Source: Chloroflexota bacterium
GTDB taxonomy: Bacteria > Chloroflexota > Anaerolineae > Anaerolineales > Villigracilaceae
Direction of reading: 5' to 3'
DNA length: 64,000 bases
NCBI GenBank assembly: GCA_016234485.1
Contig: JACRBL010000008.1
Span: 1 to 64,000, forward strand
The notes under the pieces: generated by a model
Databases searched by the model: none
What the model saw: only the letters and a program-made list of their open reading frames with translations
What the model was told of the DNA's origin: nothing
Translations under genes and position numbers: made by a program
Part shown: positions 5,647-59,874 of the stretch, in pieces
Layout: each line of letters opens with the position of its first letter
How positions within the stretch are numbered: position 1 is the stretch's first letter

Positions 5647-7011
5647 CTACAACAAAATCAATTCGGGTCGACGTTCGAGCGCGGCCTGCATGGACCACGG
5701 CCCCGTCCACGTCACTGTGACCGATTCGATTCGGCCGCGTAAATCTTCCTCGGACTCAACGAAGACGAGTTTATTGGTGGGGGTGCGGCCGCGCCAGCGT
5801 CCCTTCACTTTTTCCTCGAATAACACGTCCACTTTTTCGCCGAGATATTTCTGGTTGATCTCGCCGACGATTTTTTCCTGCAACTCTTCCAGCAGGCGGA
5901 AGCGGCGCATTTTTTCATCGTCGGACAAGTCATCGTTCATCGAGCGCGTGGCGACGGTCCCCTCGCGGGAGGAATAACGCGCGAGGTGGGCCACGTCCAG
6001 CCGAAGGTCAGAGAGGACGCGGAATGTCTCCATAAACTGGGCATCTGTCTCGCCGGGGAATCCGACGATGATATCGGTGGCGATGGAGCAGTCGGGAATC
6101 CGTGCGCGGATTTTTTCCACGAGGTCGCGGTAATTTTGCTGGGTGTAGCCGCGGCGCATGTTTTTTAACACTTCGTCGTCGCCCGCCTGGATGGGGACTT
6201 CGATGTGCGGCATCACTTTGGGGAGCGCGGCGACGGCGTCCATTAAATCTTCGGTGAAGTAGTTGGGATGCGAGGTGAGGAAGCGGATGCGTTCGATGCC
6301 GTCCACTTCATGGACGAGGCGCAGGAGCGCGGCCAGGTTGGGGCCATCGGGAACGTCTTTGCCGTAGCGATCCACGATCTGGCCGAGCAGGGTCACTTCT
6401 TTGACGCCTTGTTTGGCGAGCGAACGAATCTCGCCGATGATGTCGCCCACGGGACGGCTTCGCTCGATGCCGCGCTGGTAGGGGATGATGCAGAAGGTGC
6501 AGGCGTGCGAGCAACCATAAACGATCGGCACATGCGCGCTGACGAGTTGTCCGCGTTCGTGGTCAGGGAGGATGAGACTTGTCCTGAGCGAAGTCGAAGG
6601 ATCGCCGTCCATGAAGCCGAAGCGACGCGCGGTCTCGTCCGCTTCGATGGCGCGGACTTCGCCCTGGCTGAGGAAGGAGATCAGCGGACCGGGGTCGGAG
6701 GGAGGCGAGAAGACGTCCACGAAGGGAAGTTTGGCGCGCAGTTTTTCGGCGCCGCGCACGCCGACCATGCACCCCATCAGGTTGATGACGAGATTGGGAT
6801 TCTTCGTTTTGAGAGGGCGAAGCGAGGTCAGGCGTCCGAAGGCTTTGTCTTCGGCGGACTGGCGAACGACGCAGGTGTTTAAAACGATCACGTCCGCTTC
6901 TTCGGCTTTATCGGTAAAGGCATAACCGAGATGCTCCAGCGACGAGCCGACGCGTTGCGAGTCGGCCACGTTCATCTGACAGCCTTCGGTCCATAGATGG
7001 TATTTTTTCAT
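5647..7011 (-). CDS. miaB: tRNA-2-methylthio-N6-dimethylallyladenosine synthase
   Basis: The 454-residue product is a methylthiotransferase adding a methylthio group to i6A37 of tRNAs. The N-terminal domain has cluster cysteines C11 (TEGCQMN), C47 (LNTCVVR) and C81 (LMGCMVG). The radical SAM motif is C167, C171 and C174 (GCSHACTFCIIPYQRG). A TRAM domain closes the protein. MiaB is favoured over MtaB or RimO by TEGCQMNVADSQ and IIPYQRGIERSR. Start at 7011 follows a GGAGA site; the longer frame has a non-conserved N-terminus. Residues about 138-146 (PSTSLRTSL) come from a dispersed repeat at 6577-6602 lying between the first two domains. Confidence 0.9.
   Translation of the reverse strand: MKKYHLWTEGCQMNVADSQRVGSSLEHLGYAFTDKAEEADVIVLNTCVVRQSAEDKAFGRLTSLRPLKTKNPNLVINLMGCMVGVRGAEKLRAKLPFVDVFSPPSDPGPLISFLSQGEVRAIEADETARRFGFMDGDPSTSLRTSLILPDHERGQLVSAHVPIVYGCSHACTFCIIPYQRGIERSRPVGDIIGEIRSLAKQGVKEVTLLGQIVDRYGKDVPDGPNLAALLRLVHEVDGIERIRFLTSHPNYFTEDLMDAVAALPKVMPHIEVPIQAGDDEVLKNMRRGYTQQNYRDLVEKIRARIPDCSIATDIIVGFPGETDAQFMETFRVLSDLRLDVAHLARYSSREGTVATRSMNDDLSDDEKMRRFRLLEELQEKIVGEINQKYLGEKVDVLFEEKVKGRWRGRTPTNKLVFVESEEDLRGRIESVTVTWTGPWSMQAALERRPELILL
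6577..6602. repeat. short dispersed repeat inside miaB, in frame
   Basis: The segment contains TCCTGAGCGAAGTCGAAGG, a sequence I recognise as widely dispersed in Chloroflexota and other genomes. Read in the miaB frame it encodes DPSTSLRTSLI, placed in the linker between the N-terminal domain and the radical SAM domain. Nothing in the family requires these residues. Confidence 0.65.
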
Positions 7012-7032
7012 TCTGTTCTCCGTAGGGGGCGA

Positions 7033-7038
7033 ATTATA
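7033..7038 (-). promoter_or_regulatory. probable -10 box of miaB
   Basis: On the minus strand TATAAT ends 21 bases upstream of the miaB ATG and is followed by a short leader containing a GGAGA ribosome site. Confidence 0.45.
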
Positions 7039-7136
7039 CCAAGCGAGTCCGTAATGCGAATTGCTTCCACAGGATGCTTGGCGATATTGCGTTTCGCGTG
7101 GTGACAATCGTCACTTTGGCATTTCAGCCCGAATGT

Positions 7137-7142
7137 TATAAT
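7137..7142 (+). promoter_or_regulatory. probable promoter of icd
   Basis: The -10 box TATAAT has a TTGGCA-like -35 box at 7116-7121, 15 bases apart. A leader with AAGGAGA at 7160-7166 leads to the ATG at 7175. Confidence 0.55.
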
Positions 7143-7174
7143 CCCGCTCACAAATTTCGCAAGGAGATAGAAAG

Positions 7175-8575
7175 ATGGCATATCAAAATGTTAAAGTCCC
7201 CGCAGATGGGGCGAAGATTTCGATCAAGGACGGTAAGTTACAGGTTCCTAATAACCCGATCATCCCGTTCGTGGAAGGCGACGGAACGGGCCGCGACATT
7301 TGGCGGGCCTCTGTGCGTGTGTTCGACGCGGCCGTGGAAAAAGCCTACGGCGGCAAGCGCAAGATCCATTGGATGGAAGTGTACGCGGGCGAGAAGCCCT
7401 TCAAAATGTGGCAGACCTGGCTTCCCGATGAGACGACCGATGCTTTCCGCGAATTTTTGGTGGGCATCAAAGGCCCGCTTACCACTCCGATCGGCGGCGG
7501 CATCCGTTCGTTGAACGTCGCGCTCCGCAAACTGCTGGACCTGTATGTGTGTCAGCGCCCCGTGCGTTGGTACAAGGGCGTGCCGTCCCCGGTGTTGCAT
7601 CCCGAATATGTGGACATGGTCATCTTCCGCGAGAACACCGAGGATATTTACACGGGTATCGAATTCCAATACGGAACCGAAGACAACAAAAAATTCAAGG
7701 AACTGTTCAAGGAAGCCTTCCCGAAGGAATACGCCAAGATGCGCTTCCCCGATACGGCGGGCATCGGCCTGAAACCTGTTTCGGTCGAAGGCACCGAGCG
7801 CCTGATCCGCGCCGCCATTCAGTGGTCGTTGGACAACAAACGCAAGAGCGTGAACTTTGTCCACAAGGGCAACATCATGAAGTTCACCGAAGGCGCGTTC
7901 AAGGATTGGGGCTACACCCTCGCCAAGCGTGAGTTCCGCGGAAGCATCGTCACCGAACGCGAGACCTGGATCCTCGGCAACAAGGAAGCCAACGCGAACC
8001 TTTCGGTGGAAGACAACGCCAAGATGATTGACCCTGGCTTCGACATGATGTCCCCGGCCCAGCAGGGCGATATCAAGGCCGAAGTGGAAGAGGCCCTCAA
8101 GTTGTGGCCGACGCACGGCGAAGGCAAGTGGAAGAAGATGCTGCTCATCAAAGATTCCATCGCCGATGTTTCGCTTCAATTCACCCTGATCCGCGCCCGC
8201 GACTACGACGTGATCGCCACCATGAACCTGAACGGCGACTATCTCTCCGACGCGCTGGCCGCGCAGGTGGGCGGGATCGGCATCGCGCCGGGCGCGAATA
8301 TCAACTACGAGACCGGTCACGCCATCTTCGAGGCCACGCACGGAACCGCCCCGAAATACGCCGACCTCGACAAGGTCAACCCTGGCTCGGTCATCCTCTC
8401 CGGCGAGATGATGCTACGCTACATGGGCTGGACCGAAGCCGCCGACCTGATCGTCAAGGGCATGGAAGGCGCGGTCGCGGCCAAGACCGTCACGTATGAC
8501 TTCGCCCGTCTGATGGACGGCGCGAAAGAGGTCAAATGCTCCGAGTTTGGCGACGCGGTGATTGAGCATATGTAG
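7175..8575 (+). CDS. icd: NADP-dependent isocitrate dehydrogenase
   Basis: The 466-residue product converts isocitrate to 2-oxoglutarate and CO2 in the TCA cycle. It shows [11 protein letters not shown] near the start, the substrate loop [20 protein letters not shown] (Ser and Arg residues binding isocitrate), [14 protein letters not shown], and in the C-terminal half [14 protein letters not shown] and [11 protein letters not shown]. It is longer than the roughly 416 residues of E. coli Icd, with extra sequence in the middle, as in several bacterial enzymes of this type. Coenzyme preference is inferred from family resemblance. A good ribosome site and promoter precede it and a strong terminator follows. 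Confidence 0.93.
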
Positions 8576-8600
8576 GAAGTAGACAGGTACACAGGTAAAC

Positions 8601-8632
8601 AAAAGTCGGGACTCAATAGTCCCGACTTTTTG
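8601..8632 (+). terminator. terminator of icd
   Basis: The hairpin AAGTCGGGACT-CAAT-AGTCCCGACTT is followed by a T-run. It begins directly after a short word repeat (8577-8600, words like GTACACAG and GTAAACAA) behind the icd stop. Confidence 0.85.
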
Positions 8633-8984
8633 ATTCTGGTCGAGAACTGTTCCCCCCTCTCCCGATTTTTGGGAACCCCACAGGGGTGCTTAGCGAAGGG
8701 GCCGGGGGTGAGGGCCATGTGCTACGCAACCTTTGCTTGTACACGAAAATGTTTTAGGTCTCTCGTAATTAACGGGAAGACCATCAGATCCGCCACAGAT
8801 TACACAGATTCCCACAGAAAAATCTGTGTAACGCCTGCACTGCACCACATCTGCCCTGGCGGGCGATGCCAGGGAACGCAGTGCGGTGCAAGTGTCTGTG
8901 GCAAAAGAATCTTGTTTTGCAAGGCATCCCGTCAGAAACGGGAGAGCCAATGTTTTAACGGTTGTAATAAGACATTGTTTGTCC
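8632..8984. repeat. gene-free stretch filled with nested dispersed repeats
   Basis: The 463-base gap between icd and the kinase gene holds no gene. It contains a G/C-rich degenerate element (about 8650-8715) and then family D at 8792-8902, whose outer arms are GCCACAGATTACACAG and the matching TCTGTGGC. Family B (8835-8894, CTGCACTGCACC and GCGGTGCAAGTG) sits inside D, and element M (8848-8874, CCTGGC and GCCAGG arms) sits inside B. Removing each inner element restores the outer hairpin. Confidence 0.75.
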
Positions 8985-8990
8985 TATAAT
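8985..8990 (+). promoter_or_regulatory. probable promoter of the Ser/Thr kinase gene
   Basis: The -10 box TATAAT has a TTGTAA -35 box at 8962-8967, spacing 17. The ATG at 9039 follows a leader with AAAAGGAAA. Confidence 0.6.
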
Positions 8991-9038
8991 CAAGGCGATG
9001 GAATTTTATTGTTGTCGTCTCGAGAAAAGGAAATTTTT

Positions 9039-10658: not shown

Positions 10659-10675
10659 TGCGCCTCTTTACGAAT

Positions 10676-10709
10676 AAAAAAGTCGGGACACGAAGTCCCG
10701 ACTTTTTTA
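10676..10709. terminator. bidirectional terminator
   Basis: The hairpin AAGTCGGGAC-ACGAA-GTCCCGACTT is flanked by A and T runs between two converging genes, so it can serve both. Its stem is nearly the same as the icd terminator. Confidence 0.85.
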
Positions 10710-10710
10710 T

Positions 10711-11229: not shown

Positions 11230-11327
11230 GGTCTCTTCTCCTTAAGGTTGATTGCAGACAAAGACGAATCGGCGCATTTGAACTTTACCCCTTCAAAATG
11301 TTCTAACCCTACGCTAAGAATGACTGC

Positions 11328-11663: not shown

Positions 11664-11769
11664 AGGTTCTCCTGAAATGATTGGGGGATGGCGTATTGTA
11701 ATCGTTATCGCATTATAAAAAGAAGGCCGCCGACTGGCGACCTTCTTCCATTCTTGGCCTTCAACTTTA

Positions 11770-13188: not shown

Positions 13189-13198
13189 ATCGGCTCCT

Positions 13199-13292
13199 CG
13201 TCATTGCGAGGAGGGTGTTCTTCCCGACGAAGCAATCTCCGCGCTCGCTAAGGAGGGGATTGCTTCGGGCAAAGAACGCCCTCGCAATGACG
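13199..13292. repeat. family A palindrome (copy 1), inside the bc-complex operon
   Basis: The outer arms CGTCATTGCGAG and CTCGCAATGACG enclose inner arms GAAGCAATC and GATTGCTTC. It occupies nearly all of the 111-base gap between the cytochrome b6-like and subunit IV genes, so it would be transcribed as a long hairpin within the operon mRNA. Confidence 0.9.
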
Positions 13293-13299
13293 GTAATAA

Positions 13300-13959: not shown

Positions 13960-13962
13960 GGC

Positions 13963-15087: not shown

Positions 15088-15088
15088 C

Positions 15089-17535: not shown

Positions 17536-17623
17536 CGTCATTGCGAGCGTTCTTTGCGAAGCAATCCCCGCGTCCGACCAGGAGATTGCTTCGTCGGGAA
17601 AAACACCCTCCTCGCAATGACGG
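17536..17623. repeat. family A palindrome (copy 2), between sdhA and sdhB
   Basis: Outer arms CGTCATTGCGAG and CTCGCAATGACG, inner GAAGCAATC and GATTGCTTC. It ends 16 bases before the sdhB ATG, so in the mRNA a large hairpin would sit directly upstream of the sdhB ribosome site. Confidence 0.9.
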
Positions 17624-20978: not shown

Positions 20979-21370
20979 ACCCCCACCCGTCCTCCCCTCG
21001 TGAAGCATCCTGTAAGGGCATTCGAAAGAACACGAATGGGGGATGAGAACAGTATTCAACAAGCAAATAAAAGCACGCGTCTGTTGCCTCAACTCCCTCC
21101 CCCAAATTCCGTGCAGTTCGGAATTTGGGGGAGGGCCGGGGTAGGGGTCAGGGTCTTGTCATCTTTTCAGATTATTTTCATCCTCATTCCGTATAATTCT
21201 ACAAAATCTACATTGACCCCACCCTCCGCCTCCATACAATCGGGCATGTTTGCATTTTTCAACAAGATAATCTGTGCAAAGTCCAAAGTTTTAAGGTGTT
21301 CTTGAATTTCCTTTGTGTACTTTGTGTCCTTCGTGGTTAAGGTATTTTTCCAACAATCCGTGTCCAAAAA
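20979..21370. repeat. gene-free stretch with palindrome F1 and a solo family C arm
   Basis: The 392-base gap carries a near-perfect palindrome at 21095-21135 (CTCCCCCAAATTCC and GGAATTTGGGGGAG; family F copy 1) in a G-rich surround. A single right arm of family C lies at 21310-21341 (words CTTTGTGTA and CTTTGTGTC). A TATAAT at 21190-21195 has no obvious gene. No other function is seen. Confidence 0.65.
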
Positions 21371-23449: not shown

Positions 23450-23536
23450 CGTCATTGCGAGCGCTCTTTGCGAAGCAATCCCCTCCCACGGCGCGGAGAT
23501 TGCTTCGTCGGGGAAAGCGCCCTCCTCGCAATGACG
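23450..23536. repeat. family A palindrome (copy 3)
   Basis: Outer arms CGTCATTGCGAG and CTCGCAATGACG with inner GAAGCAATC and GATTGCTTC, between the small membrane gene and the next membrane protein gene. Confidence 0.9.
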
Positions 23537-27496: not shown

Positions 27497-28501
27497 ATGC
27501 TTTCCCGACGCGAATTTCTCAAACTGAGCGGCGCGGGGTTTCTAGCCCTCGTGCTGGCCGAATTGCGCCTCGACAAAGTGCTGGCCGAAGCGCCCGTCAC
27601 GTTTCAGGGACGCGCCGCCATCAGCGGCGTGCCGGTCTACGAAGCCGCGTCGTTCAAGTCGAAGCAGATCAAATTGCTCGGTAAGGACAAGGTCATTGAC
27701 CTGCTCGCGCAATTGACGGGCGAGGGCGATTACAACCGCATCTGGTATCGCTACGCCGAGGGCTTCGTCCACTCGGCCGATATCCAACCCGTCCACACCC
27801 AACTGCAAACGCCCATCACCAAACTCGAACGCAAGCAGGTTCTCGGCGAAGTCACCGTCCCGTATTCGGACACGCGTCGCGGCTACAACATCTACGCCGA
27901 CAATGCCTACCGCGTCTTCTACGGCTCCACCCATTGGGTGACTGCGATCAACGTCAACAAAACGGATGGGAGCGTCTGGTATCAAATCTACGACGATCAT
28001 CTGCATCAAAATTTCCATCTCGACGGGCGCCACGTCCGTCTCATTCCTGACGAGGAGCTGGCTCCGCTTTCGAGCGACGTTCCCGACGCCCTGAAAACCA
28101 TCTACGTGGATCTCGAGACTCAATATGTGCTGGCCTTCGAGGACGAACGCCTCGTCATGCGGACGCGTTGCGCTACTGGCGCGGGTCGCACGAAAACACC
28201 CAAGGGGAAATACTCCACCTATCACAAAGGCCCGTCCGTCCACATGACCAACCAGGGCGACGCGAAGATCGGCATCTACGACCTGCCTGGCGTTCCCTGG
28301 TGCAGTTTCTTCACCAGCACAGGCATCGCCTTCCACGGTGTGTATTGGCACAATGACTTTGGCCAGCCGCGCAGTCACGGATGCGTGAACCTGCCCACCA
28401 GCGCCGCGAAATTCCTCTATCGCTGGACCACTCCCATCGTCCCGCCCGAGAAAAATTATCTCCACAAACCAGGCGCGGGGACGGTGGTACACGTGTCTTA
28501 G
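27497..28501 (+). CDS. Tat-exported L,D-transpeptidase (YkuD)
   Basis: The 334-residue product has the Tat signal LSRREFLKLSGAGFLALVLA, an N-terminal SH3-like region (GVPVYEAASFKSKQIKLLGK), and a YkuD domain with PRSHGCVNLP, catalytic C296, and conserved FHGVYWHNDFGQ. It is the closest relative in this window of the protein at 3854-4909, and both end with a similar FLYRW / LYRWT segment. It should form 3-3 peptidoglycan crosslinks outside the membrane. Confidence 0.88.
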   Translation: MLSRREFLKLSGAGFLALVLAELRLDKVLAEAPVTFQGRAAISGVPVYEAASFKSKQIKLLGKDKVIDLLAQLTGEGDYNRIWYRYAEGFVHSADIQPVHTQLQTPITKLERKQVLGEVTVPYSDTRRGYNIYADNAYRVFYGSTHWVTAINVNKTDGSVWYQIYDDHLHQNFHLDGRHVRLIPDEELAPLSSDVPDALKTIYVDLETQYVLAFEDERLVMRTRCATGAGRTKTPKGKYSTYHKGPSVHMTNQGDAKIGIYDLPGVPWCSFFTSTGIAFHGVYWHNDFGQPRSHGCVNLPTSAAKFLYRWTTPIVPPEKNYLHKPGAGTVVHVS

Positions 28502-32365: not shown

Positions 32366-32371
32366 TATTGT

Positions 32372-32461
32372 GTCGTTGCGAGGAGGGCGCTTTTCCCGAC
32401 GAAGCAACCCCCACACCAACTTGGAGACTGCTTCGGCGGACGAGCATCGCCTCGCAGAAAC
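32372..32461. repeat. family A palindrome (copy 4), diverged
   Basis: The left arm begins GTCGTTGCGAG and the right arm ends CTCGCAGAAAC. Inner arms are CGAAGCAACC and GACTGCTTCG. The family structure is clear but more point changes are present than in copies 1-3. It lies between proC and the next gene. Confidence 0.85.
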
Positions 32462-33840: not shown

Positions 33841-35898
33841 ATGTCCCTCATCACCGCCACCTCCCTCTCCAAATCCTTCGGCGCGGAAGATATTTTCCGC
33901 GGCGTTACGTTTTCCGTGCCAAAGGGCGCGCGGCTCGCCATCGTCGGTCCCAACGGCTGTGGCAAGACTACCCTGCTCCGTATTCTCATCGGGGACGAAG
34001 AAGCCTCTTCGGGAACAGTGACCCGCGCGAGGTCCGCGCGAATCGGGTACCTCTCGCAGGAGGCCGACTTCCAGATGGAGGGAACGCTCTGGGAGGCGTG
34101 CCTGTCCCCGTTCGCGAGTCTCATTCAACAGCAGGACGAACTCCACCGACTCGAATCGCAAATGGTGAACGCCAGCTCCGACCTGCTCGAACGCTACGGC
34201 AAACTGCAACACGACTTTGAACGGCGCGGCGGATACACGTACGTGACGCGCATCAAGCAGGTGTTGACGGGGCTGGGCTTCGACGCGTCGGACTACGACA
34301 TGCGGCTGGATCACCTCTCGGGCGGACAGCGCACCCGCGCCTTCCTCTCCCGCCTCCTGCTCTCAGACCCCGACCTGCTCCTGCTCGACGAGCCGACCAA
34401 CCACCTCGACATCCGCGCCGTGGAGTGGCTGGAAAGTTATCTCGCGCAATGGGATGGCGCGGCGGTGATCGTCTCGCATGACCGCTACTTCTTGGATCGC
34501 GCCGCCAACGTGATTTTGGAAATGCGTCCCGACGGCGCGGAAGTTTATCGCGGCAACTACACTCACTATTTGCAGCAGCGCGAGGAACGTTGGAATCGCC
34601 GCGAGGAAATTTTCAACAGCGAAAAAGAAAAACTAATCAAAGAAGTGGAGTACATCAAGAAGAATATTTCGGGGCAGAACACGTTGCAGGCCAAGGGCAA
34701 ACTCAAACGGCTGACGCGCGTCGTGCAGGCCATCGAACAATTGGGCATGGACGCGGTCGTCAACTCCAATTGGAGTCAGCTGGGCGTGGAGACAACCACC
34801 TCGCCTTTTGGCGTGGAAGAGGCCGAGCGACACGTGCGCGCCCTGCGTCTGCCCGACAACCGCCCGCCGAAATTCCATCTGCGACTGAAGACCGCCTCGC
34901 GTTCGGGCGAATTGGTCTTGCGGACAAAAAACCTGAAGGTCGGCTATCCCCCCGACAAAGAGCGTGGCGACGCGGGCAAGTTCCTGTTTGCCGCTGAAGA
35001 CATCACCTTGCGCCGACAGGACTGCGCGGCCTTGATCGGTCCCAACGGCGCGGGCAAGACCACCTTCCTGAAAACCGCGTTGGAAAATTTGGCTCCGCTG
35101 GGCGGCGAGGTCATCATGGGCGCGTCGCTCCACATCGGATACTTCGCCCAAGCCCACGAGGGACTCGACCCGCGCAAGACGCTCATGCAGGAAATCCAGT
35201 CGGTGCGGCCTGAGTTTTTGATTCACGAGGTGCGCGACCTGCTGGGCAAGTTCCTGTTTTCGGGCGACGACGCTTTCAAACTCGTGGACATGCTTAGCGG
35301 CGGCGAGCGTGGACGTCTCGCACTCGCCAAACTCGCGCTCCAACAAACCAACTTCCTCCTGCTCGATGAACCCACCAATCACCTCGACATCCCCGCGCAG
35401 GAAGTGTTGCAGTCCGTGCTGGATAACTACGAAGGGACGATTCTGCTCGTCAGCCACGACCGCTATTTGATAGATGCGCTCGCGACGCAAATTTGGGAGA
35501 TTCAGCAGACCTCACAGGTCTCTGAGGCCTGTGAGGTCTCTCAACTGGTGGTCTACAACGGCACATACTCGCAGATGAAGGAAGAGCGGGAAAAACAGGC
35601 CGCGCGACTTGCAGAGCAAAACGATATTCGATACTCGAAAGTCGATGATCGAATATCGAATATCGAATATCGAAAATCAAAATCCGCCAAATCAAAAGAA
35701 GAACGCCGCCGCGTCGCCCAGTTGCAGGAACTCGAAAACGCCATCGCCGCCCTCGAAGCCGACTTGGCGAATCTGGGCGCGCAGTTGGAGAGTCCGTTCG
35801 TGAACCCGAAAGAGGTGGCGGTGATCGGGAAGGAGTACGAGCGCGTCCAGAAGGAGATGGATGAGAAGTTGAGGGAGTGGGAGAGGTTGCAGGGATGA
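33841..35898 (+). CDS. ABC-F type ATPase
   Basis: The 685-residue product has two ABC domains and no membrane segment: Walker A VGPNGCGKTTLL and IGPNGAGKTTFL, signatures LSGGQRTRAF and LSGGERGRLA, Walker B LLLLDEPTNHLD twice, and a charged linker between them (EEIFNSEKEKLIKEVE). ABC-F proteins act on ribosomes. The C-terminal part (595-685) is a coiled coil as in Uup-type members. Two dispersed repeats are read in frame: residues about 555-566 from an AGACCTCACAGGTC palindrome, and about 594-614 from an 8-nt word repeat. Confidence 0.9.
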   Translation: MSLITATSLSKSFGAEDIFRGVTFSVPKGARLAIVGPNGCGKTTLLRILIGDEEASSGTVTRARSARIGYLSQEADFQMEGTLWEACLSPFASLIQQQDELHRLESQMVNASSDLLERYGKLQHDFERRGGYTYVTRIKQVLTGLGFDASDYDMRLDHLSGGQRTRAFLSRLLLSDPDLLLLDEPTNHLDIRAVEWLESYLAQWDGAAVIVSHDRYFLDRAANVILEMRPDGAEVYRGNYTHYLQQREERWNRREEIFNSEKEKLIKEVEYIKKNISGQNTLQAKGKLKRLTRVVQAIEQLGMDAVVNSNWSQLGVETTTSPFGVEEAERHVRALRLPDNRPPKFHLRLKTASRSGELVLRTKNLKVGYPPDKERGDAGKFLFAAEDITLRRQDCAALIGPNGAGKTTFLKTALENLAPLGGEVIMGASLHIGYFAQAHEGLDPRKTLMQEIQSVRPEFLIHEVRDLLGKFLFSGDDAFKLVDMLSGGERGRLALAKLALQQTNFLLLDEPTNHLDIPAQEVLQSVLDNYEGTILLVSHDRYLIDALATQIWEIQQTSQVSEACEVSQLVVYNGTYSQMKEEREKQAARLAEQNDIRYSKVDDRISNIEYRKSKSAKSKEERRRVAQLQELENAIAALEADLANLGAQLESPFVNPKEVAVIGKEYERVQKEMDEKLREWERLQG
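35507..35539. repeat. palindrome inside the ABC-F gene, in frame
   Basis: The arms AGACCTCACAGGTC and GCCTGTGAGGTCT surround a six-base loop. In frame it reads as part of QTSQVSEACEVSQL, between a conserved strand (ALATQIWEI) and the next one (VVYNGTYSQ). Related proteins usually have only a few residues here. Confidence 0.75.
35622..35681. repeat. 8-nt word repeat inside the ABC-F gene, in frame
   Basis: The word GAATATCG repeats with variants, giving the residues DIRYSKVDDRISNIEYRKSK in the C-terminal linker before the coiled coil. The local base composition is far more AT-rich than the rest of the gene. Confidence 0.75.
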
Positions 35899-37863: not shown

Positions 37864-37963
37864 GTTTTTGCGAGGGTGTTCTCCCTGGCGCCGCCCGCCA
37901 GGGCAGGTGTCCCGAAGCAATCCCCTCTGCCGGACGGGAGACTGCTTCGTTCCTCGCAGAAAC
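37864..37963. repeat. family A palindrome (copy 5) carrying element M
   Basis: Diverged outer arms (TTTTTGCGAGG and CCTCGCAGAAAC). The left inner arm is interrupted by element M at 37883-37909 (CCCTGGCG and CGCCAGGG arms plus CAGGTGT). Removing M restores GTTCT-TCCCG as in copies without it. Confidence 0.8.
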
Positions 37964-39763: not shown

Positions 39764-39810
39764 GTTGAGTCCTTTCCTGTTTGGCTCATGTTCAAAAAGA
39801 GTGGAAGTTT

Positions 39811-39929
39811 GTTTCTGCGAGGAGGGTGGTCTCCCTGGCACCGCCCGCCAGGGCAGGTGTCCCGACGAAGCAGTCCCCATCTCTTGGTGGGGGTTGCTTC
39901 GGGCGGAAGTTCACCGCCCTCGCAACGAC
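39811..39929. repeat. family A palindrome (copy 6) carrying element M
   Basis: Outer arms GTTTCTGCGAGG and CCTCGCAACGAC. Element M at 39833-39859 is inserted in the left arm at the same site as in copy 5. Confidence 0.85.
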
Positions 39930-39959
39930 AATCACACTTTTTATGGGTGAGAATCCTTT

Positions 39960-40979: not shown

Positions 40980-41046
40980 GAGGTGTGAAGCACAGATGAA
41001 AGGGATGTAATGATTCTTACGTATCCCTTCCATCGGAAAACCATTT

Positions 41047-41175
41047 TTAACCACAAAGGACACCAAGTATACAAAGAAAGGAAAAGGCGTGAATTTTACA
41101 AAGGGTTTCCTTCGTGACCTCACCAGCACTGCACCGAACGCAGTGCGGTGCAAGTGTTGTGTCCTTTGTGGTTAA
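41047..41175. repeat. family C palindrome (copy 3) with family B inside
   Basis: Outer arms TTAACCACAAAGG and CCTTTGTGGTTAA. The right arm is interrupted by family B at 41123-41156 (CAGCACTGCACC and GCGGTGCAAGTG), inserted between GTGACCT and TGTGTCC, which are contiguous in copy 1. Confidence 0.88.
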
Positions 41176-48815: not shown

Positions 48816-48930
48816 CGTCATTGCGAGCGTTTGTTGCGAAGCAATCTCCTCTCGTTGCACGGAGACTGCTTCGTCGGGACACCTGCCCTGGCGGGCGGCG
48901 CCAGGGAGAGCGCCCTCCTCGCAGAGACGG
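48816..48930. repeat. family A palindrome (copy 7) with element M in the right arm
   Basis: Outer arms CGTCATTGCGAG and CTCGCAGAGACG. Element M (48880-48906) lies reversed in the right arm, at the mirror position of copies 5 and 6. It separates the dimethylargininase gene from vsr. Confidence 0.88.
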
Positions 48931-48936
48931 AATTCA

Positions 48937-50278: not shown

Positions 50279-51024
50279 GGCTTTGCCATCCAGGTTTGAT
50301 ACAGCCCCAGATTGCCGCCCTCGCCATCCGAATAAAATGAATCTACAACAGAGAATCCTGTCTGCGCGGCCAACTCGGATAGTTCGTCCTCGCTGAATTG
50401 GTGGGCGTAGCGCAGACCTTCGCCGCCGCGCCGCCAATCGAGGAGATAGTCGCCTTCGTCCACGTCACGGTCGGAGAGCCCGATCTGCTCCCAGGATTGG
50501 ATGCGAGCGCGCAGTTTGGCGCTGTTGAGGAATTGCCAGTTGGAGAGGATGAACTTTCCATCAGGAGCGAGGAGGGTTGAAACCGTTTTTAGCAAGTTCA
50601 AGCGCAGTTCAGTGGAAGGGATGTGGTGTAAGGTCGCAAAGGCAGTAATCAGTGTCCAGTGTTCAGTGTTCAGCGCCTGATGACTGATAACTGATAACTG
50701 TTCACTGATCACTGATAACTTCGTCAAATCAAACTCCACGAACTTCGCGTCGAATCCCTCGGGCAGGGCGGACGCGTCCGCAAGCAGGGGCACGCTAAAG
50801 TCCAGGCCGAGATACGAGCCGCGGTGGCCGTTTCGGGCGAGGACGCGCGCGAATTCGCCATTGCCGCATCCCAGGTCAAGGATGGACGCGTCCCGCGCGA
50901 GGGTCGGGAGCAGGCGCGTGACGCCAGGTTGGAGTTGCTGGCGCGTGGCGGAAAAGTCCGCGCCGAAGCGGTCGTAAAAGTCACGATTGAGTTGAATGAG
51001 GCGCGCGGCCACGTCTAAATTCAT
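50275..51024 (-). CDS. SAM-dependent methyltransferase with repeat-derived insert
   Basis: The 249-residue product has a class I methyltransferase fold: SILDLGCGNGEFARVLARNG (motif I), GSYLGLDFS (motif II), TAFATLHHIP (motif IV region). It resembles tRNA (Trm9-like) methyltransferases in layout, but that is inference. Residues about 101-127 (LSVISEQLSVISHQ and following) are encoded by a family H word repeat and have no counterpart in the fold. The ATG at 51024 lies six bases from a -10 box. It begins the operon with dcm and vsr. Confidence 0.82.
   Translation of the reverse strand: MNLDVAARLIQLNRDFYDRFGADFSATRQQLQPGVTRLLPTLARDASILDLGCGNGEFARVLARNGHRGSYLGLDFSVPLLADASALPEGFDAKFVEFDLTKLSVISEQLSVISHQALNTEHWTLITAFATLHHIPSTELRLNLLKTVSTLLAPDGKFILSNWQFLNSAKLRARIQSWEQIGLSDRDVDEGDYLLDWRRGGEGLRYAHQFSEDELSELAAQTGFSVVDSFYSDGEGGNLGLYQTWMAKP
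50644..50720. repeat. family H word repeat inside the methyltransferase gene, in frame
   Basis: Words CTGATAA, CTGATCA and relatives repeat with period seven over 77 bases inside the coding sequence. They read through without stop in the used frame, whereas on the other frames the words TGA and TAA would give stops. Confidence 0.85.
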
Positions 51025-51771: not shown

Positions 51772-51870
51772 TTTGGTGGTCGCGTAGTCTGATAGTCGTG
51801 TGGTCATACTGCGTGTTGCATGTTCCATTGACCTGTGTACGTGTGTACTTGTTTACCTGTTTACTTTCCA
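51769..51870. repeat. composite word repeat (families J, K, I) between cysH and elp3
   Basis: Three blocks follow each other: words GTAGTCTG and ATAGTCGT (about 51769-51808), then GCGTGTT and GCATGTT, then GTGTACG and GTGTACTT with period eight up to 51866. It takes up the whole gap and touches the elp3 ATG. Confidence 0.7.
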
Positions 51871-53508
51871 ATGACCAAAGAATCCTGGCTTGCCGCCAAC
51901 ACCCTCACCCCCGAAAAGATCGCCATCGCCCGCCGCGTGGTGGACGAAGTGAATCGCGGACGCGACATCGGCGATAGTTTGCGCGCGCACGCGTTGAAAC
52001 CTGGCGGCGTGTTGGGCAAATCGTTCCTCGTGGCGGCCTACAACGAAATGGTGGCGGATGGGACTCTCGCGGCAGACACGTCCCTGTTCGATAAACTCCG
52101 CATGAAACCCGTGCGGACTCTTTCAGGCGTGACGACCGTGACGGTTCTCACCAAGCCGTATCCCTGCCCGGGGAAGTGCATCTTCTGTCCCACGGATGTG
52201 CGGATGCCGAAGAGTTACCTGCCCGATGAGCCTGGCGCGATGCGCGGCTTGGAGCACAACTTCGACCCGTACGCGCAAGTCCGCTCGCGCTTGACGCAAC
52301 TGGAAAACCTCGGCCATCCCACCGATAAAATTGAATTGTTGATTCTTGGCGGGACGTGGAGTTCGTATCGGCGCGATTATCAGGAATGGTTCGTGGCACG
52401 ATGTTTTGAAGCGCTTAATTCACCTAACCCCCCCGTCCCCCCTTACCTTTAAGGGAAGGGGGGTGAAGGGGGGTTAGGTGAATCCCACTCCGCCAACGAA
52501 TCCGCGTCTCATCGTAACGTGGGACTCGTGATCGAGACTCGTCCCGATGAAATCACGCCCGATGAGTTGCGCTGGCTCCGTCATCTCGGCGTGACGAAGG
52601 TGCAACTCGGCGCGCAGAGTTTGGACGATCACATCCTGGAAATCAACAAGCGCGGACACGACGTCGCGTCCACGCATCGCGCCGTCTCGCTCTTGCGCGC
52701 GGCGGGATTCAAAGTTGTGCTCCATTGGATGCCCAACCTGCTGGGCGCGACTCCCGAAAGCGACCGCGCCGACTTCGCCAAACTGTGGACGGGTCTCTGC
52801 CCCGATGAGATCAAAATTTACCCCAATCAATTGCTCGCCAACGCCGAACTCTACGAATACTGGCAGCGCGGCGAATTTCATCCCTACACCACCCAGCAAC
52901 TCATTGACCTGATCGTTGGCATCAAGCCGACCATCCCACGCTATTGCCGCGTCAACCGCGTCATCCGCGACATCCCGTCCACGCATGTGGTGGAGGGAAA
53001 TCGGCGCACGTCCCTGCGGCAGGACATCCAGATCGAGATGAAGAAACGCGGCGTCCATTGCGAGTGCGTCCGTTGCCGCGAAGTGCGCGCGAAAAATATC
53101 AACCCCGAATCCCTGCGGCTGGACGATCTCGCCTACCAGACCGATTCCGCCGAGGAGCATTTCATTTCGTTCGTCACGCCCGATGATAAAATAGCGGGCT
53201 TCGTGCGACTGTCGCTTCCGAACGAGACCTCCCCCGCGACGGGACTCTCCGACCTGGACGGCGCGGCGCTGATCCGCGAAGTCCACGTCTATGGGCAGTC
53301 GCTTCCCGTCGGCGCGGACAGGGCGGGGGCCGCGCAACACGTCGGGCTGGGCAGCCGCCTGCTCGTCGAAGCGGACGCGATCGCGCGGGCGCACGGCTTC
53401 CGTCGCATGGCGGTCATCTCCGCGGTGGGGACGCGCGGTTATTACCTCGATCGCGGTTTTACGCGCGGCGAATATTATTTGGTGAAAGAGTTACATAACG
53501 GACGTTAG
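51871..53508 (+). pseudogene. elp3: Elp3 tRNA-uridine acetyltransferase, interrupted by a palindrome
   Basis: Residues from 51871 give the radical SAM N-terminal part (KPGGVLGKSFLVAAYNEM, then C99PGKC103IFC106P and the GLEHNFDPYAQVRSRL segment). From 52485 on the same frame resumes with SANESASHRNVGLVIETRPD and ends in a GNAT domain (GLGSRLLVEADAIARAHGF). A 64-base palindrome (52419-52482) lies between, replacing a variable loop. It carries TAA at 52450-52452 in the common frame. Without readthrough the two halves (193 and about 330 residues) are separate; each would lack half of the active enzyme. Elp3 modifies wobble uridines. Confidence 0.85.
52419..52482. repeat. palindrome inside elp3 (family G)
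   Basis: The arms TTCACCTAACCCCCC and GGGGGGTTAGGTGAA form a very GC-rich 64-base hairpin, with TAA near its centre. It keeps the reading frame on both sides, so only the stop blocks translation. The host gene resumes similarity right after it. Confidence 0.9.
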
Positions 53509-54706: not shown

Positions 54707-54715
54707 TGATCCTCG

Positions 54716-54779
54716 CGGACTCCAACGTCTCTGACGTTGGAATTCGCCACTACCCGAAGTCTGGAGACTTCGGAGTCCG
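54716..54779. repeat. compound hairpin (family N, copy 1)
   Basis: The outer arms CGGACTCC and GGAGTCCG enclose two small hairpins, AACGTC-TCT-GACGTT and CGAAGTC-TGGA-GACTTCG. A related copy lies in frame inside meaB at 59132-59184. Confidence 0.85.
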
Positions 54780-54801
54780 AAAAAAATAGACAGGCCGTTT
54801 T

Positions 54802-55650: not shown

Positions 55651-55654
55651 GCGC

Positions 55655-56425
55655 CTACAACCCCGGCGTATACTTCTTCTCCCACGCGCGGATCGCGGCT
55701 TGAATGACGGCCTTCACTTCGGGGTCGGTCACTTCGCCCACGCCCGCGAATTTTGTCAACCCCACCCAAACCACCACGCCGCCTTCGGGCGATTCAGTTA
55801 ATCGAATGCCTCGCTTGGCAAGAGTGGTCAGCGCGAGCATGCCCTGAAGGATCTCGTCAATCTGCCCCACGATGGTCGTAGGCGCGGCGGGCTTTTCATC
55901 TTTCTTGACAGCGACAACGGGCGCCGCGGGCTGCTCTGGCGCGGGCGGGGGAGGCGTCATCTGGAGGGGCATCAAGCGCGGCTCTGGCGCGGACGGGGAA
56001 GCGGACGCCGCGGGCGCGGGCGCGACAGGCGCGGCGGCCTTTCCCTCGATCCACGGGCGCATCATGTTCAGCAAAACCAGCAAGCGTTTCCGACTCAGTT
56101 CCGCCAGCGGGGCCACTTCCACGCGGCGGTTGTCGAGATCGAGTTGCGGATTGGCGTTCACATCCAGCCACAGACGGAGGAGCGTGCTTCCCGGCAGGGA
56201 TGGTTTTGCCTCGGCCGCCGCGCGCGCGGCTTGTGCGGTATTAATAGCGCGTTCGGCGTCGCCTTTGGCCTGGGCAACGGCGATCTCGGCTTTTTGCTCG
56301 GCCTGCGCGATCTTTTTCGCGGCGCGGTTATTCGAATCAAAATAGCCGATAGCCATTCCAATAATGAGGGCGATCACGCCAACAATCACGGGAAGGAATT
56401 TGCTCCAATCAATAACGGCCTGCAT
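55655..56425 (-). CDS. membrane-anchored protein of unknown function
   Basis: The 256-residue product has an N-terminal membrane helix (about 8-28), a coiled coil (about 29-68: AAKKIAQAEQKAEIAVAQAK), a domain of about 70 residues (LRLWLDVNANPQLDLDNRRV), a Pro/Ala linker (145-200) and a C-terminal domain (TIVGQIDEILQGMLALTTL, VWVGLTKFAGVGEV). Starts two bases after the mutM stop with a GAGGTAG site, so it is co-transcribed with mutM. I do not recognise the family. Confidence 0.65.
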   Translation of the reverse strand: MQAVIDWSKFLPVIVGVIALIIGMAIGYFDSNNRAAKKIAQAEQKAEIAVAQAKGDAERAINTAQAARAAAEAKPSLPGSTLLRLWLDVNANPQLDLDNRRVEVAPLAELSRKRLLVLLNMMRPWIEGKAAAPVAPAPAASASPSAPEPRLMPLQMTPPPPAPEQPAAPVVAVKKDEKPAAPTTIVGQIDEILQGMLALTTLAKRGIRLTESPEGGVVVWVGLTKFAGVGEVTDPEVKAVIQAAIRAWEKKYTPGL

Positions 56426-56427
56426 AA

Positions 56428-57231
56428 CTACCTCTGTCTCTGGCATTTCGGGCAAACGTGGGTGCCGCGCTGCCCAACGCTCAATTTAATGATTTCCGCC
56501 CCGCAAACGGGACATGGCTTTCCATCACGATCATACACACGAAAATAATTTTGGAATTCGCCGCCGCGATACACCCAATCAATGGACGCGCCGTTGCGAC
56601 GGATGCCCTCGCTCAAGGTGGCGCGAATCGCGTCATGCAGACGTTTGGCCTGGGCGCGTGTGACCGAATCGGACGCGGCCTGCGGGTGGAGCCGCGCGGC
56701 GTGCAAGGCCTCGTCGGTGTAGATGTTGCCGAGGCCCGCCAGGAATCTTTGGTCGAGCAACAGCGGCTTCAATTGGCGATGGCGCTGGCGCAGGTTTTCG
56801 TACAACCAGTCGGGCGTGAACGCGTCCGAAAGCGGCTCCGGGCCGAGGTCCCCGACCACCGAGTCGGGATCGTTCGTCAACCAGACGCGGCCAAACTTGC
56901 GCGTGTCGTTGAATGCCAAAATTTTATCGTCCGAAAGTAGCAGGCGCAAGCGGTCATGCTTTTCGGGTAACGCGTTTCCTTCTTTTACAAACAAATCGCC
57001 GCTCATCCGCAAGTGGATGAATAGATGGAAATCGGAAAGCTGAATATCCACGAATTTTGCGCGTCGCCCCACATTGAGAATCTTCTGCCCGCGAATTTGC
57101 TCGCGAAACTTGCGCGCCGATGGATGCGCCACCGTCCGCGCCCAGCGAATCTCCGCGTTAAGAATCTCCATGCCAATGATGGCAGGTTGAATCGCGCGCG
57201 CAATCGTGTCAACCTCGGGGAGTTCGGGCAT
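56428..57231 (-). CDS. mutM: formamidopyrimidine-DNA glycosylase
   Basis: The 267-residue product removes oxidised purines such as 8-oxoguanine. It has the N-terminal PELPEVDTIA with Pro2 as nucleophile and Glu3, K59 in GRRAKFVDIQL, the DNA-binding segment FNDTRKFGRVW, the H2TH region LLDQRFLAGLGNIYTDEALH and the C-terminal zinc finger CPVC and CPKC. A complete, normal-length enzyme. Confidence 0.95.
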   Translation of the reverse strand: MPELPEVDTIARAIQPAIIGMEILNAEIRWARTVAHPSARKFREQIRGQKILNVGRRAKFVDIQLSDFHLFIHLRMSGDLFVKEGNALPEKHDRLRLLLSDDKILAFNDTRKFGRVWLTNDPDSVVGDLGPEPLSDAFTPDWLYENLRQRHRQLKPLLLDQRFLAGLGNIYTDEALHAARLHPQAASDSVTRAQAKRLHDAIRATLSEGIRRNGASIDWVYRGGEFQNYFRVYDRDGKPCPVCGAEIIKLSVGQRGTHVCPKCQRQR

Positions 57232-57296
57232 GGCGTTTCGTTTTTAGCGGTTAGCGTTTGGCTTTTAGTGATTGGCTAATCGCTAACTGCTAACCA
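57232..57296. repeat. 7-nt word repeat (family L)
   Basis: Words TAGCGGT and TAGCGTT, then the inverse set CGCTAAC and TGCTAAC, fill the gap between prs and mutM. Confidence 0.65.
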
Positions 57297-58283
57297 CTAC
57301 TCATTAAACATCTCTCCCACCGAGCGCCCTTCATGCGCGCGGCGGATGACCTCGCCGACCAGTTCGGCTACGGTGAGGACGGTGATCTTCCCTTGCAAAA
57401 TTTTCATCTTGACTTCGGGAATCGAAACGGTATCGGTGGTGATGATCTGTTTGATGGGCAGTGACGCCAGTCTTTGCGCGCCCTCGCTGGAGAGGATGGG
57501 ATGGATAAACGAAAGATATACATCTCGCGCTCCGCTCTTCTTGACAAGGTTCACCGCCTGCCCGATCGAGCCGCCCGTGTCCACCTCGTCGTCCACGATG
57601 ATCACATCGCGGTCCTTCACGTCGCCAATGAGGGTCAGCGCTTCGGCGTTGGCGTCGTTACCCGTGCGGCGTTTTTCAATGAAGGCAATGGGGGTGTCCA
57701 GGTCGGCGGCGTAGTTGCGTCCCTTTTTGGCAAAGCCCAGGTCCACCGCGACCACTACAGGGTCCTTGAGGTGCGGACGGATATTCTTGTTGATGTAGTC
57801 GGTCAATAACGAGGAGGCCGTCAACACGTCGCCAGGGATTGAGAAGAAACCCTGCACCTGTCCCGCGTGCGGGTCGAGCGTCATGTAGCGGTCGGCGCCC
57901 GCGGCTTCGATCATGTCTGCCACCAGACGGGCGGTGATCGGTACGCGCGGCTGATCTTTTTTATCCGAGCGGCCGTAGCAAAGGTAGGGAACCACCGCCG
58001 TGATGCGCGCGGCCGAGTCCAACCGCAGGGTCTGGATCATAATGAGCAGTTCCATTAAATTACGATGTACTGGCGACGCGGTGGATTGGATCACATACAC
58101 ATCCTGCCCTCGCACGCTGGTCTTCAACTTGATGAAAAGATTCTCGTTTGGAAACTCGATCACCTCGCTCTCGCGCAAGGGGCTGTTGAGATAATCGGAT
58201 ATCTTTTGGGCAAGATCGGGCGAGCCTGTCCCCGCGTAAAGTTTGATGTCGCCGTAGACCTTCATGTTGTGGGTATGATGCAT
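57297..58283 (-). CDS. prs: ribose-phosphate pyrophosphokinase
   Basis: The 328-residue product makes PRPP from ribose-5-phosphate and ATP. It shows the family start IKLYAGTGSPDLAQKISDYL, the metal-binding FSIPGDVLTAS region and the PRPP loop DVIIVDDEVDTGGSIGQAVN. The PRPP motif has EVDTG where many enzymes have DxxDTG. ATG at 58283 overlaps the stop of the GNAT gene (TGATG), with AAAGGAG inside the end of that gene. MKVYG six codons later is an alternative start. Confidence 0.9.
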   Translation of the reverse strand: MHHTHNMKVYGDIKLYAGTGSPDLAQKISDYLNSPLRESEVIEFPNENLFIKLKTSVRGQDVYVIQSTASPVHRNLMELLIMIQTLRLDSAARITAVVPYLCYGRSDKKDQPRVPITARLVADMIEAAGADRYMTLDPHAGQVQGFFSIPGDVLTASSLLTDYINKNIRPHLKDPVVVAVDLGFAKKGRNYAADLDTPIAFIEKRRTGNDANAEALTLIGDVKDRDVIIVDDEVDTGGSIGQAVNLVKKSGARDVYLSFIHPILSSEGAQRLASLPIKQIITTDTVSIPEVKMKILQGKITVLTVAELVGEVIRRAHEGRSVGEMFNE

Positions 58284-58837
58284 CACTTCTCCTTTTTAAG
58301 CGCGTCCCATTCGCGCCGTAACATGCTCATCATGTGAACGTCTAAAAAAAATCCTTTTTTAAAAGCCGCTTCACGCATGGTCCCCTCCAATTTAAACCCG
58401 GCCTTTTCATAAGCGCGCACCGCACGCGGGTTTGCCACATACACGCGCAGGAAAACGCGATTCAAATTCAACGTCTCAAATCCATGCCGTAAAAGCAGGC
58501 GCATCGTCTCTGTGCCAAAGCCCTGATTCCAGACGCTCTTCTCGCCGATCATAATTCCCACCTCGGCGCAATGCGCTACCGAATCAAAATCAAAAAATCC
58601 GCTATTGCCAATTAATTTCCAGCCATCGCCCGCGCGCATTTCAATCGCCAGCGGTTTCTCATTTGGCGTGCGATTTGCCAGTCCCTCAAACCACTTCTCC
58701 TCGTCCGTTATGGACATCGGCAAATACATCGAAAGGCCGAAGGTCACTTCGGGGTCGTTCAGCCACTCCACAAACGTTTTCACATCCTCGCGCTCCACCG
58801 CCCGCAGGCGGATGCGCTCGCCATAAATTCGGCTCAT
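58283..58837 (-). CDS. GNAT acetyltransferase
   Basis: The 184-residue product is a RimJ/SpeG-like GNAT enzyme: GERIRLRAVEREDVKTFVEW, VGIMIGEKSVWNQGFGTETM (acetyl-CoA loop) and VFLRVYVANPRAVRAYEKAG. It overlaps meaB upstream by four bases and prs downstream by one, so the three are translationally coupled. Substrate unknown. Confidence 0.87.
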   Translation of the reverse strand: MSRIYGERIRLRAVEREDVKTFVEWLNDPEVTFGLSMYLPMSITDEEKWFEGLANRTPNEKPLAIEMRAGDGWKLIGNSGFFDFDSVAHCAEVGIMIGEKSVWNQGFGTETMRLLLRHGFETLNLNRVFLRVYVANPRAVRAYEKAGFKLEGTMREAAFKKGFFLDVHMMSMLRREWDALKKEK

Positions 58838-59874
58838 TTCTGCCTCCCGTTCAACAACAACTTCACAGCCTCCCAGGGCGAAAGACTGCGCTCGTAGACA
58901 TTCTTCAGCGTGGACTCAAACTTCCCGTTCGGGACTTCCGCGCGGAACCGCGCCATCAACGCCTCCCGCAACAACGCCTCCATCTCGGACCCGAGGCGGG
59001 CGCGCTCGCGGGCGGCCCAATCTCCACTGGCGCGTAAATGCTCCGCGTGCTCGGCGATGTGCGCGGCCAATTCGGCGATGCCCTGTCCCTCCACTGCCAC
59101 TGTCCGTTGGATGGGAGGAAGCCACATTTTCCCGGACTCCAATGTCTCTGACATTGGATGCAAAGTCGGAGACTTTGCGCTCCGAGCGAACGCGCCATTT
59201 GTCTCTACGCGTCCATGATGGAGGAAAACATGCCGCGTCGGATGCGCCAACTCCAGCATGGATTTGAGCGCCTTCTCGGTATTCTCCACGCCCGGGCGGT
59301 CGGCCTTGTTGATTACCAACACGTCCGCGATCTCGAGGATGCCCGCCTTAATGGCTTGAATATCGTCGCCGAGACCGGGCGCTTCCACCACCAGCGTAGT
59401 GGAAGCGAGGCGGGCAATGTCCACTTCGCTTTGGCCCGCGCCCACCGTTTCGATCAACGTCACGTCGAAGCCCGCCGCGTCGAAGACCTGCGTCATCGCT
59501 GCGGTGGCCTGGGCCAATCCACCCAGCGAGCCGCGCGTCGCCATCGAGCGGATGAACACGCCCGCGTCGCCCGCCAGGTCGCGCATCCGCACGCGGTCGC
59601 CCAGCACCGCGCCCCCCGTGAACGGGCTGGACGGGTCCACCGCCAAAATCGCCACGCGCTTTCCCTCGCGTCGAAAATGTAAAGCCAGTTGGTTCACGAG
59701 CGACGATTTCCCCGTGCCAGGCGCGCCCGTCACGCCGATGAGATGCGTCTTCCCCGTGTGCGGAAAAAGCTCCGCCAGCGCGGCGCGTCCCTCGGCAGAA
59801 TCATTTTCCACCTGCGTCAGCAAGCGCGCCAACGCGAGACGATCCCCTTGAAGAACGGATTGGGAGAGGGTCAT
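58834..59874 (-). CDS. meaB: methylmalonyl-CoA mutase-associated GTPase MeaB
   Basis: The 346-residue product is a SIMIBI-class G protein protecting and reloading B12-dependent mutases. It has the Walker A GVTGAPGTGKSSL, VAILAVDPSSPFTGGAVLGD, DVTLIETVGAGQSE and NKADRPG. Residues about 231-248 (ARSAKSPTLHPMSETLESG) come from a compound hairpin repeat in frame, just before KMWLPPIQRTVA; the homologous region is normally short. The B12-binding mutase subunit gene lies just upstream. The large mutase subunit is not in this window. Confidence 0.9.
   Translation of the reverse strand: MTLSQSVLQGDRLALARLLTQVENDSAEGRAALAELFPHTGKTHLIGVTGAPGTGKSSLVNQLALHFRREGKRVAILAVDPSSPFTGGAVLGDRVRMRDLAGDAGVFIRSMATRGSLGGLAQATAAMTQVFDAAGFDVTLIETVGAGQSEVDIARLASTTLVVEAPGLGDDIQAIKAGILEIADVLVINKADRPGVENTEKALKSMLELAHPTRHVFLHHGRVETNGAFARSAKSPTLHPMSETLESGKMWLPPIQRTVAVEGQGIAELAAHIAEHAEHLRASGDWAARERARLGSEMEALLREALMARFRAEVPNGKFESTLKNVYERSLSPWEAVKLLLNGRQK
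59132..59184. repeat. compound hairpin (family N, copy 2) inside meaB, in frame
   Basis: Outer CGGACTCC and GCGCTCCG, inner AATGTC-TCT-GACATT and AAAGTC-GGA-GACTTT. It has the same plan as 54716-54779. The insert is a whole number of codons. Confidence 0.88.

Follow-up and report, generated by a model that had tools for sequence, protein, structure and literature searches.

Unrelated dispersed repeats occupy shared loops of enzyme genes in Anaerolineales

Palindromic repeats inside genes have been known since the work on Rickettsia, mostly as scattered cases, and miniature inverted-repeat transposable elements (MITEs) are non-autonomous inverted-repeat elements that are able to enter genes. 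The frequency with which such inserts arise, any special character of their sites and the fate of the encoded peptides have been open questions. Here we analyse a 64,000-nucleotide (nt) stretch of DNA (the window) from a Chloroflexota bacterium of the order Anaerolineales (GenBank assembly GCA_016234485.1, contig JACRBL010000008.1, positions 1 to 64,000; C39:1-64000 in our numbering), in which repeat-like segments lie within miaB, an ABC-F gene (twice), a methyltransferase gene, meaB and elp3. We find repeats of many unrelated families inserted in frame within coding sequence, and one loop of elp3 that holds different families in different species.

Several described systems lie close to this one. 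In excerpts of PMC3733652, repetitive extragenic palindromic sequences (REPs) occur within genes of several species, different REPs occupy about the same recB site in two Xanthomonas species, and REPs are found inside other palindromes; its authors regard the removal of REP-inactivated genes as plausible. The same excerpts treat RPE-4 and RPE-6 of R. conorii, two of the Rickettsia palindromic elements (RPEs), as CGTC repeats and list CGTC repeats in five phyla, Chloroflexi not among them. In excerpts of PMC4679880, TAACTGA heptamer repeats within genes lie mostly at protein ends.

The window belongs to a draft 4.46-Mb genome in 68 contigs (G000), which was compared with relatives at three ranks: seven genomes from its genus, 11 from its family and 12 from its order (other G-numbers; L-numbers denote individual loci). 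Judged by elp3, the closest named genomes are uncultured Anaerolineales such as SulCav_AS07-7_2_58_45, SURF_68 and UBA7227. The original prediction, made from the window alone, had placed six repeat-like segments in five genes, and all six could be read in the DNA where it placed them (Table 1). Further copies of the elements exist in the genome. We counted them in 864 kb of G000 (19% of the genome), pooling matches within 60 nt into merged sites and including the window's own copy; the control throughout was the query or library read backwards (reversed control). Allowing up to two mismatches, G000 contains 12 matches to the miaB element (reversed control 0), which has four merged sites in the sample, three of them genic (control 0). 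The site-1 arm of ABC-F has seven merged sites, six genic (control 1), the CGAATAT repeat of its site 2 has 14, seven genic (control 0), and the methyltransferase heptamer has 18, six genic (control 0), whereas the two meaB hairpins have five and four, with one genic site each (control 0). For the elp3 palindrome there are only two merged sites, both genic, against a control of 1, so this family is rare in G000 and draws its support from copies in relatives; its second sample copy is read in frame as KPNPPGPPSLKGKGG within a 680-residue gene. Because the window families were chosen after being seen in genes, these genic shares are no fair estimate for repeats overall. No known RNA family was found in the window at Rfam gathering scores.

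Homologues without the insert exist for four of the six window sites (miaB, meaB, ABC-F site 1 and elp3), and these homologues lack the inserted residues rather than carry identical ones. In miaB, the eight residues are missing in 29 of 29 other rows, and G004 has an unrelated four-residue insertion at that place. The meaB gene of G000 is 14 codons longer than those of G006 and G001, and the extra DNA consists of the two hairpins. ABC-F site 1 shows a net gain of eight codons over G001 and is empty in G001, G004, G005, G013 and G014; elsewhere it holds a different 15-3-15 palindrome (G010) or half of one (G015). The other two segments are older than the species of G000, and are partly shared within the genus or variable among relatives: the second ABC-F linker varies, its segment being partly common to G001 and G005, and the methyltransferase segment is common to G006, G002, G007 and, partly, G013. 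At another position of ABC-F, just past the second Walker A motif (GPNGAGKTT), G002 and G005 (L052, L053) carry a 38-residue insertion to which no family was assigned.

Two details of the prediction, that each insert falls in a linker or surface loop and enters its gene in frame, held in part. In miaB the insert separates two Pfam domain matches, in ABC-F the second segment directly precedes the C-terminal domain match and in elp3 the insert is at a loop that the solved Elp3 structure 5l7j has in short form, whereas the meaB and methyltransferase segments fall inside a domain match. The elp3 insert is a whole number of codons, yet carries TAA in frame, so that the open reading frame (ORF) at 51835-52452 stops within the insert and the remainder of elp3 forms a separate ORF, 95% identical to G006. 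Among the 98 elp3 rows described below, G000 is alone in having a stop in the loop, which may be a sequencing or assembly error, the genome being a draft.

The elp3 loop was compared across 80 named loci and 19 rows from G000 and its relatives; L249 (in which the contig begins inside the loop), G012 and G026 were left out, giving 98 rows. The records are nearly all titled Anaerolineales, Anaerolineae or Chloroflexi, with few exceptions such as L264 (Moraxellaceae). In 49 of the 98 rows the loop carries a repeat from one of six or more unrelated families (A to F; Table 1); of the other loops, 31 are long and unassigned and 18 are short. Short loops belong mainly to distant rows, and chain 5l7j has one as well. 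Supported sisters carry different families: L215 has B and L226 C, L217 has C and L256 B, and L209 has F and L230 A. A tree was built from the remainder of the protein by a quick search, which left 31 of 95 inner branches unresolved; its supported branches require a minimum of 7 changes for A, 4 for B, 7 for C and 6 for D. Composite loops also occur. In L227 a family D arm is split by a small palindrome and followed by family A, in G013 family D contains a nested palindrome, and in L203 a family D arm precedes another palindrome. In a test independent of the labels, 12-mers of the G000 repeat library described below occurred in 15 of 96 elp3 loops (reversed control 1), whereas of the 79 downstream parts, each 960 nt long, 2 contained one. 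The unassigned long loops were also considered as eroded copies of family D, but searches with profiles of the protein and the DNA found no clear signal in 29 of the 31, and the idea was dropped.

The same loop holding another repeat was seen, by eye, in five further genes, encoding a UDP-N-acetylglucosamine (UDP-GlcNAc) epimerase, a pyridoxal-phosphate (PLP) enzyme, ABC-F, the methyltransferase and MeaB. The epimerase and the PLP enzyme were picked from the census described below for their full CGTC repeats; in relatives their loops are filled by an octamer repeat in G002 and G007, by a different palindrome in G006 or by family A in G001, others being empty. A full family A palindrome likewise fills the meaB loop of G010, and the methyltransferase loop of G001 holds an AACGTT repeat instead of heptamers. 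Seven loops of six other genes gave 12 library matches in 8.8 kb, compared with 21 in 145 kb of the remainder of these genes, several of the 12 being shared by descent and the test having been run without a reversed control. Library 12-mers matched no miaB, meaB or epimerase loop.

The census itself asked where repeats lie in the 864-kb sample, in which a simple purpose-made caller found 736 genes (731 kb coding and 133 kb non-coding DNA). In a count of 13-nt k-mers across all the DNA, codon-usage words drowned out the rest, and it was replaced by a library of 736 12-mers (coincidentally the gene number), each present at least four times in non-coding DNA, which was mapped back with a cut-off of at least 16 nt covered; at 12 nt the backward library still gave 80 coding matches as compared with 155, and matches below the cut-off were therefore set aside. 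This yielded 211 non-coding matches, 39 coding matches in 30 genes and 15 mixed ones (reversed control 0), or 0.053 per kb in genes and 1.59 per kb outside, a roughly 30-fold lower density in genes; a library built from intergenic DNA undercounts mainly genic families, and the genic share is thus a lower bound. For 26 of the 39 genic copies the coding score exceeds 2 on both sides, and the score inside is mostly low or negative. Pfam matches to 10 of the 30 proteins included PriA (two inserts), SbcC-like, acetyl-CoA synthetase-like and HemN-like proteins, UDP-GlcNAc 2-epimerase and the PLP enzyme. Stop content gave no sign of a frame preference, as six-frame openness was 0.73 for genic and 0.72 for intergenic copies. 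As a matter of arithmetic only, one-third of insertions in frame, multiplied by about 0.7 open and by a modest tolerant share, gives a few per cent, which matches the observation.

Several of these genes deserve separate mention. The PriA helicase gene (C8:285-2813; L161) has one of its two repeat inserts past the 3' DNA-binding domain. A 1,672-residue DUF2298 membrane protein (C31:310466-315484; L196:10466-15484) contains five library-matched inserts, and its DUF2298 neighbour (C31:306888-309383) contains another repeat insert.

The elements differ in build, and some lie inside others. The intergenic CGTC-tagged repeat occupies at least 40 distinct places in the genome (40 of 281 candidates scored), with full matches of 81 to 94 nt and some copies inside genes beyond the window; CGTC stands at one end of a short palindrome, CGTCATTGCGAG...CTCGCAATGACG, in 17536-17622 and 23450-23536. 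The palindrome CCCTGGCRCCGCCCGCCAGGGCAGGTGT (37872-37915, 39822-39865 and 48874-48917, with further copies in the sample on C8 and C39) has 11 copies, of which seven sit within a CGTC repeat, always at one point or at its equivalent in the other half, and two more lie inside GGCGATTC/GAATCGCC, so that 9 of 11 are within another repeat. The family D arm has 65 matches in G000 (control 0). The 33-nt double hairpin of ABC-F (relatives in L339-L362) has a fixed 15-3-15 build in which the letters vary, complementarity is kept and the central triplet differs between copies. With up to two mismatches, its sites number about 48 in G000, 48 in G024 and 37 in G021 (control 0), and 7 of the 31 genomes have none. 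When double hairpins were found by structure, with 30 to 38 nt allowed, 12 of 17 measured 33 nt. Genic copies make up 5 of 13 sites of the 33-nt form (including the ABC-F copy) as against about 34 of 237 other sites (Fisher p 0.036), a rough comparison in which the 237 was obtained by subtraction.

Table 1. Positions of repeat segments in the window, and repeat families of the elp3 loop
Feature	Position	Strand	Remarks
24-nt repeat in miaB	6577..6600	-	Encodes PSTSLRTS; exact 8-codon insertion
33-nt double hairpin (15-3-15), ABC-F site 1	35507..35539	+	Encodes QTSQVSEACEVS
TATTCGA/CGAATAT heptamer repeats, second linker of ABC-F (site 2)	35622..35676	+	Encodes IRYSKVDDRISNIEYRK
AGTNATC-type heptamer repeats in methyltransferase	50641..50720	-	Encodes LSVISEQLSVISHQALNTEHWTLIT
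66-nt palindrome CCTAACCCCC..GGGGGTTAGG (family B) in elp3	52418..52483	+	In-frame TAA at 52450-52452
Hairpin pair (GCAAAGTCTCCGACTTTGC, CCAATGTCAGAGACATTGG) in meaB	59134..59183	-	Pattern is family F of elp3 loops L209 and L237
Intergenic 87-nt CGTC-tagged repeat	17536..17622	+	Also 23450-23536, 13199-13292, 48816-48935, 39804-39930, 37872-37950, 32371-32439
Palindrome CCCTGGCGCCGCCCGCCAGGGCAGGTGT nested in CGTC repeat	37882..37910	+	Also 39832-39860, 48874-48917
Intergenic AACCACAAAGGACAC repeat pair (family D)	41046..41173	+	Also 2515-2615, 21309-21346
Family A (CTCACCCC..CTCTCCC, peptide LTPTPLPxGEG)	elp3 loop		14 rows, one with A and D
Family B (CCTAACCCCC palindrome)	elp3 loop		5 rows
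Family C (ATTTTGC..GCAAAAT, C/G arms)	elp3 loop		9 rows
Family D (AACCACAAAGGACAC)	elp3 loop		16 rows
Family E (ATCCGCAGATT)	elp3 loop		3 rows
Family F (meaB hairpins)	elp3 loop		2 rows

Two further repeats were noted. A 131-nt repeat of 74% identity (4727-4857 and 28322-28452) is shared by two coding genes that have HGTYWHNDFG-type motifs and are apparently paralogues of one enzyme family, presumably L,D-transpeptidase-like. A small ORF (C39:98961-99236; L179) consists nearly entirely of tandem GWKEGRS units, the DNA words of which recur elsewhere.

Taken together, the original observation is partly confirmed: it holds in the main, is broader than first seen and exceeds chance. We consider it probable that dispersed repeats insert, are mostly lost from genes and survive by reusing tolerant loops. 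Short repeats without genes of their own, mostly palindromic or of heptamer type, would keep inserting across Anaerolineales genomes, as their copy numbers and lineage-specific sites suggest, and most insertions within genes would be lost. Comparison with relatives shows that the survivors span whole codons, have no stop in the frame used and lie in places tolerant of changes in length. The same loops would be struck repeatedly because few loops tolerate insertions, and the different families and the composite and nested states of elp3 show such turnover in one loop. The encoded peptides may be by-products that are kept, eroded or replaced, and a copy may also break its gene, as the elp3 copy of G000 seems to do.

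A stronger form of this reading is tentative. Repeats appear to land in repeats, and the finding that 9 of 11 copies of one palindrome lie inside another repeat suggests that a loop filled by one repeat may turn into a landing site for the next. Palindromic repeats might then be preferred landing sites, and a filled enzyme loop a standing port at which unrelated families enter, replace one another and nest over speciation, mostly in one frame and across the order; the 33-nt hairpin, at 11 codons, may suit genic life. We regard this as possible, although we would not favour it at present.

Several results weigh against repeated insertion into tolerant loops. The family labels came from patterns written after the loops had been viewed, and the labels need 43 changes on the tree compared with a shuffled mean of 59.6; they are therefore clustered and partly inherited, family D alone being unclustered (15 changes as against 15.1 shuffled). 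Library matches fell unevenly across the labels, in 7 of 16 loops with D, 1 of 13 with A and none with B, E or F. Scored by anchor, each family in elp3 is mostly read in a single frame (A in 12 of 14 loops, B in 5 of 5, C in 6 of 8 that could be scored and D in all 13 that could be scored among 17), even though A is open in five frames and C in six; D is open in three and B in only two. By the same anchor, family C lies forward in 7 of 9 loops, reversed in one and unscored in one. Random landing would mix frames, which may point to fewer origins than the tree counts, to a fixed landing nucleotide or to selection on the peptide. A trace of family D appeared in 2 of the 31 unassigned loops, with L207 scoring 10.8 against 10.6 for the best of 1,580 shuffled peptides and L276 reaching a DNA E value of 7e-5 with no shuffle control. 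In ABC-F and meaB the net gain (24 and 42 nt) falls short of the length of the element (33 and 50 nt), so insertion was accompanied by local loss. At miaB, the single and cleanest site at which filled and empty states were compared, no target-site duplication is visible. No mobilizing enzyme was identified either; a Y1-type transposase (Y1_Tnp), considered as a RAYT-type mover, matches three times in G000 and one or more times in all 19 genomes searched, which proves nothing, and around the one match whose surroundings were covered (C31:50000-55000) there is no library repeat.

The mostly single frame per family would also be expected if elp3 loop alleles had spread between species by recombination, with few insertions and many transfers. 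Two sister pairs alternate between B and C, and by eye some odd sequence details are common to the B loops of L215 and L256. Such exchange nevertheless seems improbable to us as the main cause: several unlinked genes show a like pattern, the ends of the B element differ by eye between G000 and the other four copies, and source copies shared within a clade could give equal likeness without transfer.

The original prediction went further and proposed an unusually active process of making new protein segments. In a reading along these lines, repeats would be adapted in length and frame and retained for helpful peptides. The mostly single frame of each elp3 family is in keeping with this, as are the 33-nt length and rough genic excess of the double hairpins and the high genic share of the window families, which points the other way from the census, though these were picked in genes. 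The proposal fares poorly against the rest of the data, and we think it very unlikely. With the intergenic library, coding density is about one-thirtieth of that outside genes, and openness is equal; heptamers, octamers and CGTC repeats do not come in threes; the window's own elp3 copy holds a stop that breaks the gene; and sister species carry different families and peptides in one loop, contrary to a kept function. Landing anywhere followed by removal of harmful copies suffices and fits better. Least credible of all is that the loops are native, fast-evolving coding sequence that is repetitive by chance or slippage: relatives do differ in the methyltransferase loop and in the second linker of ABC-F, for parts of which this reading may hold, and heptamers could expand by slippage, but intergenic copies of identical DNA, controls at or near zero, long palindromes unexpected from codon drift and empty sites speak against it for miaB, ABC-F site 1, meaB, elp3, the epimerase and the PLP enzyme.

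The elp3 loop is a natural record of protein segments coming and going. Empty, nested, eroded and broken states can be read together in its 98 rows, and five other genes behave alike. Comparison alone can thus measure how often new protein segments arise, which sites they take, in which frame they are read and what happens to them, and it also shows which loops of core enzymes accept foreign peptides. In the literature, nothing on hot loops or the 33-nt element was found among the top matches judged by title and start of abstract, a search whose scope excluded most subscription journals, and a text search with the element letters and peptides returned nothing related by title and abstract.

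Compared with known systems, these repeats act as RPEs do, as had been predicted: they are short, dispersed and palindromic, they lie in frame within genes of unrelated function, and homologues free of the insert exist. The likeness is drawn at the level of behaviour. Unlike RPEs, they comprise many unrelated families, with heptamers, octamers and a 33-nt double hairpin, in a 4.5-Mb genome of another phylum, and one loop holds different families by species. As for MITEs, comparison of filled and empty states at a single site, that in miaB, showed no target-site duplication. The 87-nt repeat resembles the CGTC-tagged REP superfamily, as it begins with CGTC and ends with GACG, has halves in opposite orientation and is present in high copy number, mostly between genes and sometimes within them. 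The methyltransferase insert resembles, as far as excerpts of PMC4679880 describe them, the TAACTGA heptamers of Beggiatoaceae and Cyanobacteria: it consists of TAACTGA-type heptamers in reverse orientation, encoding LSVIS(x)Q peptides similar to the published ones, and direct TAACTGA heptamers (ACTGATAACTGATAACTGTT) occur at the methyltransferase and related sites, with unit variants common here. In contrast to the repeats in those excerpts, it lies inside a domain and is common to several species. Palindromic repeats within genes were thus already known from RPEs and REPs; what is new here is the turnover of multiple families in fixed loops.

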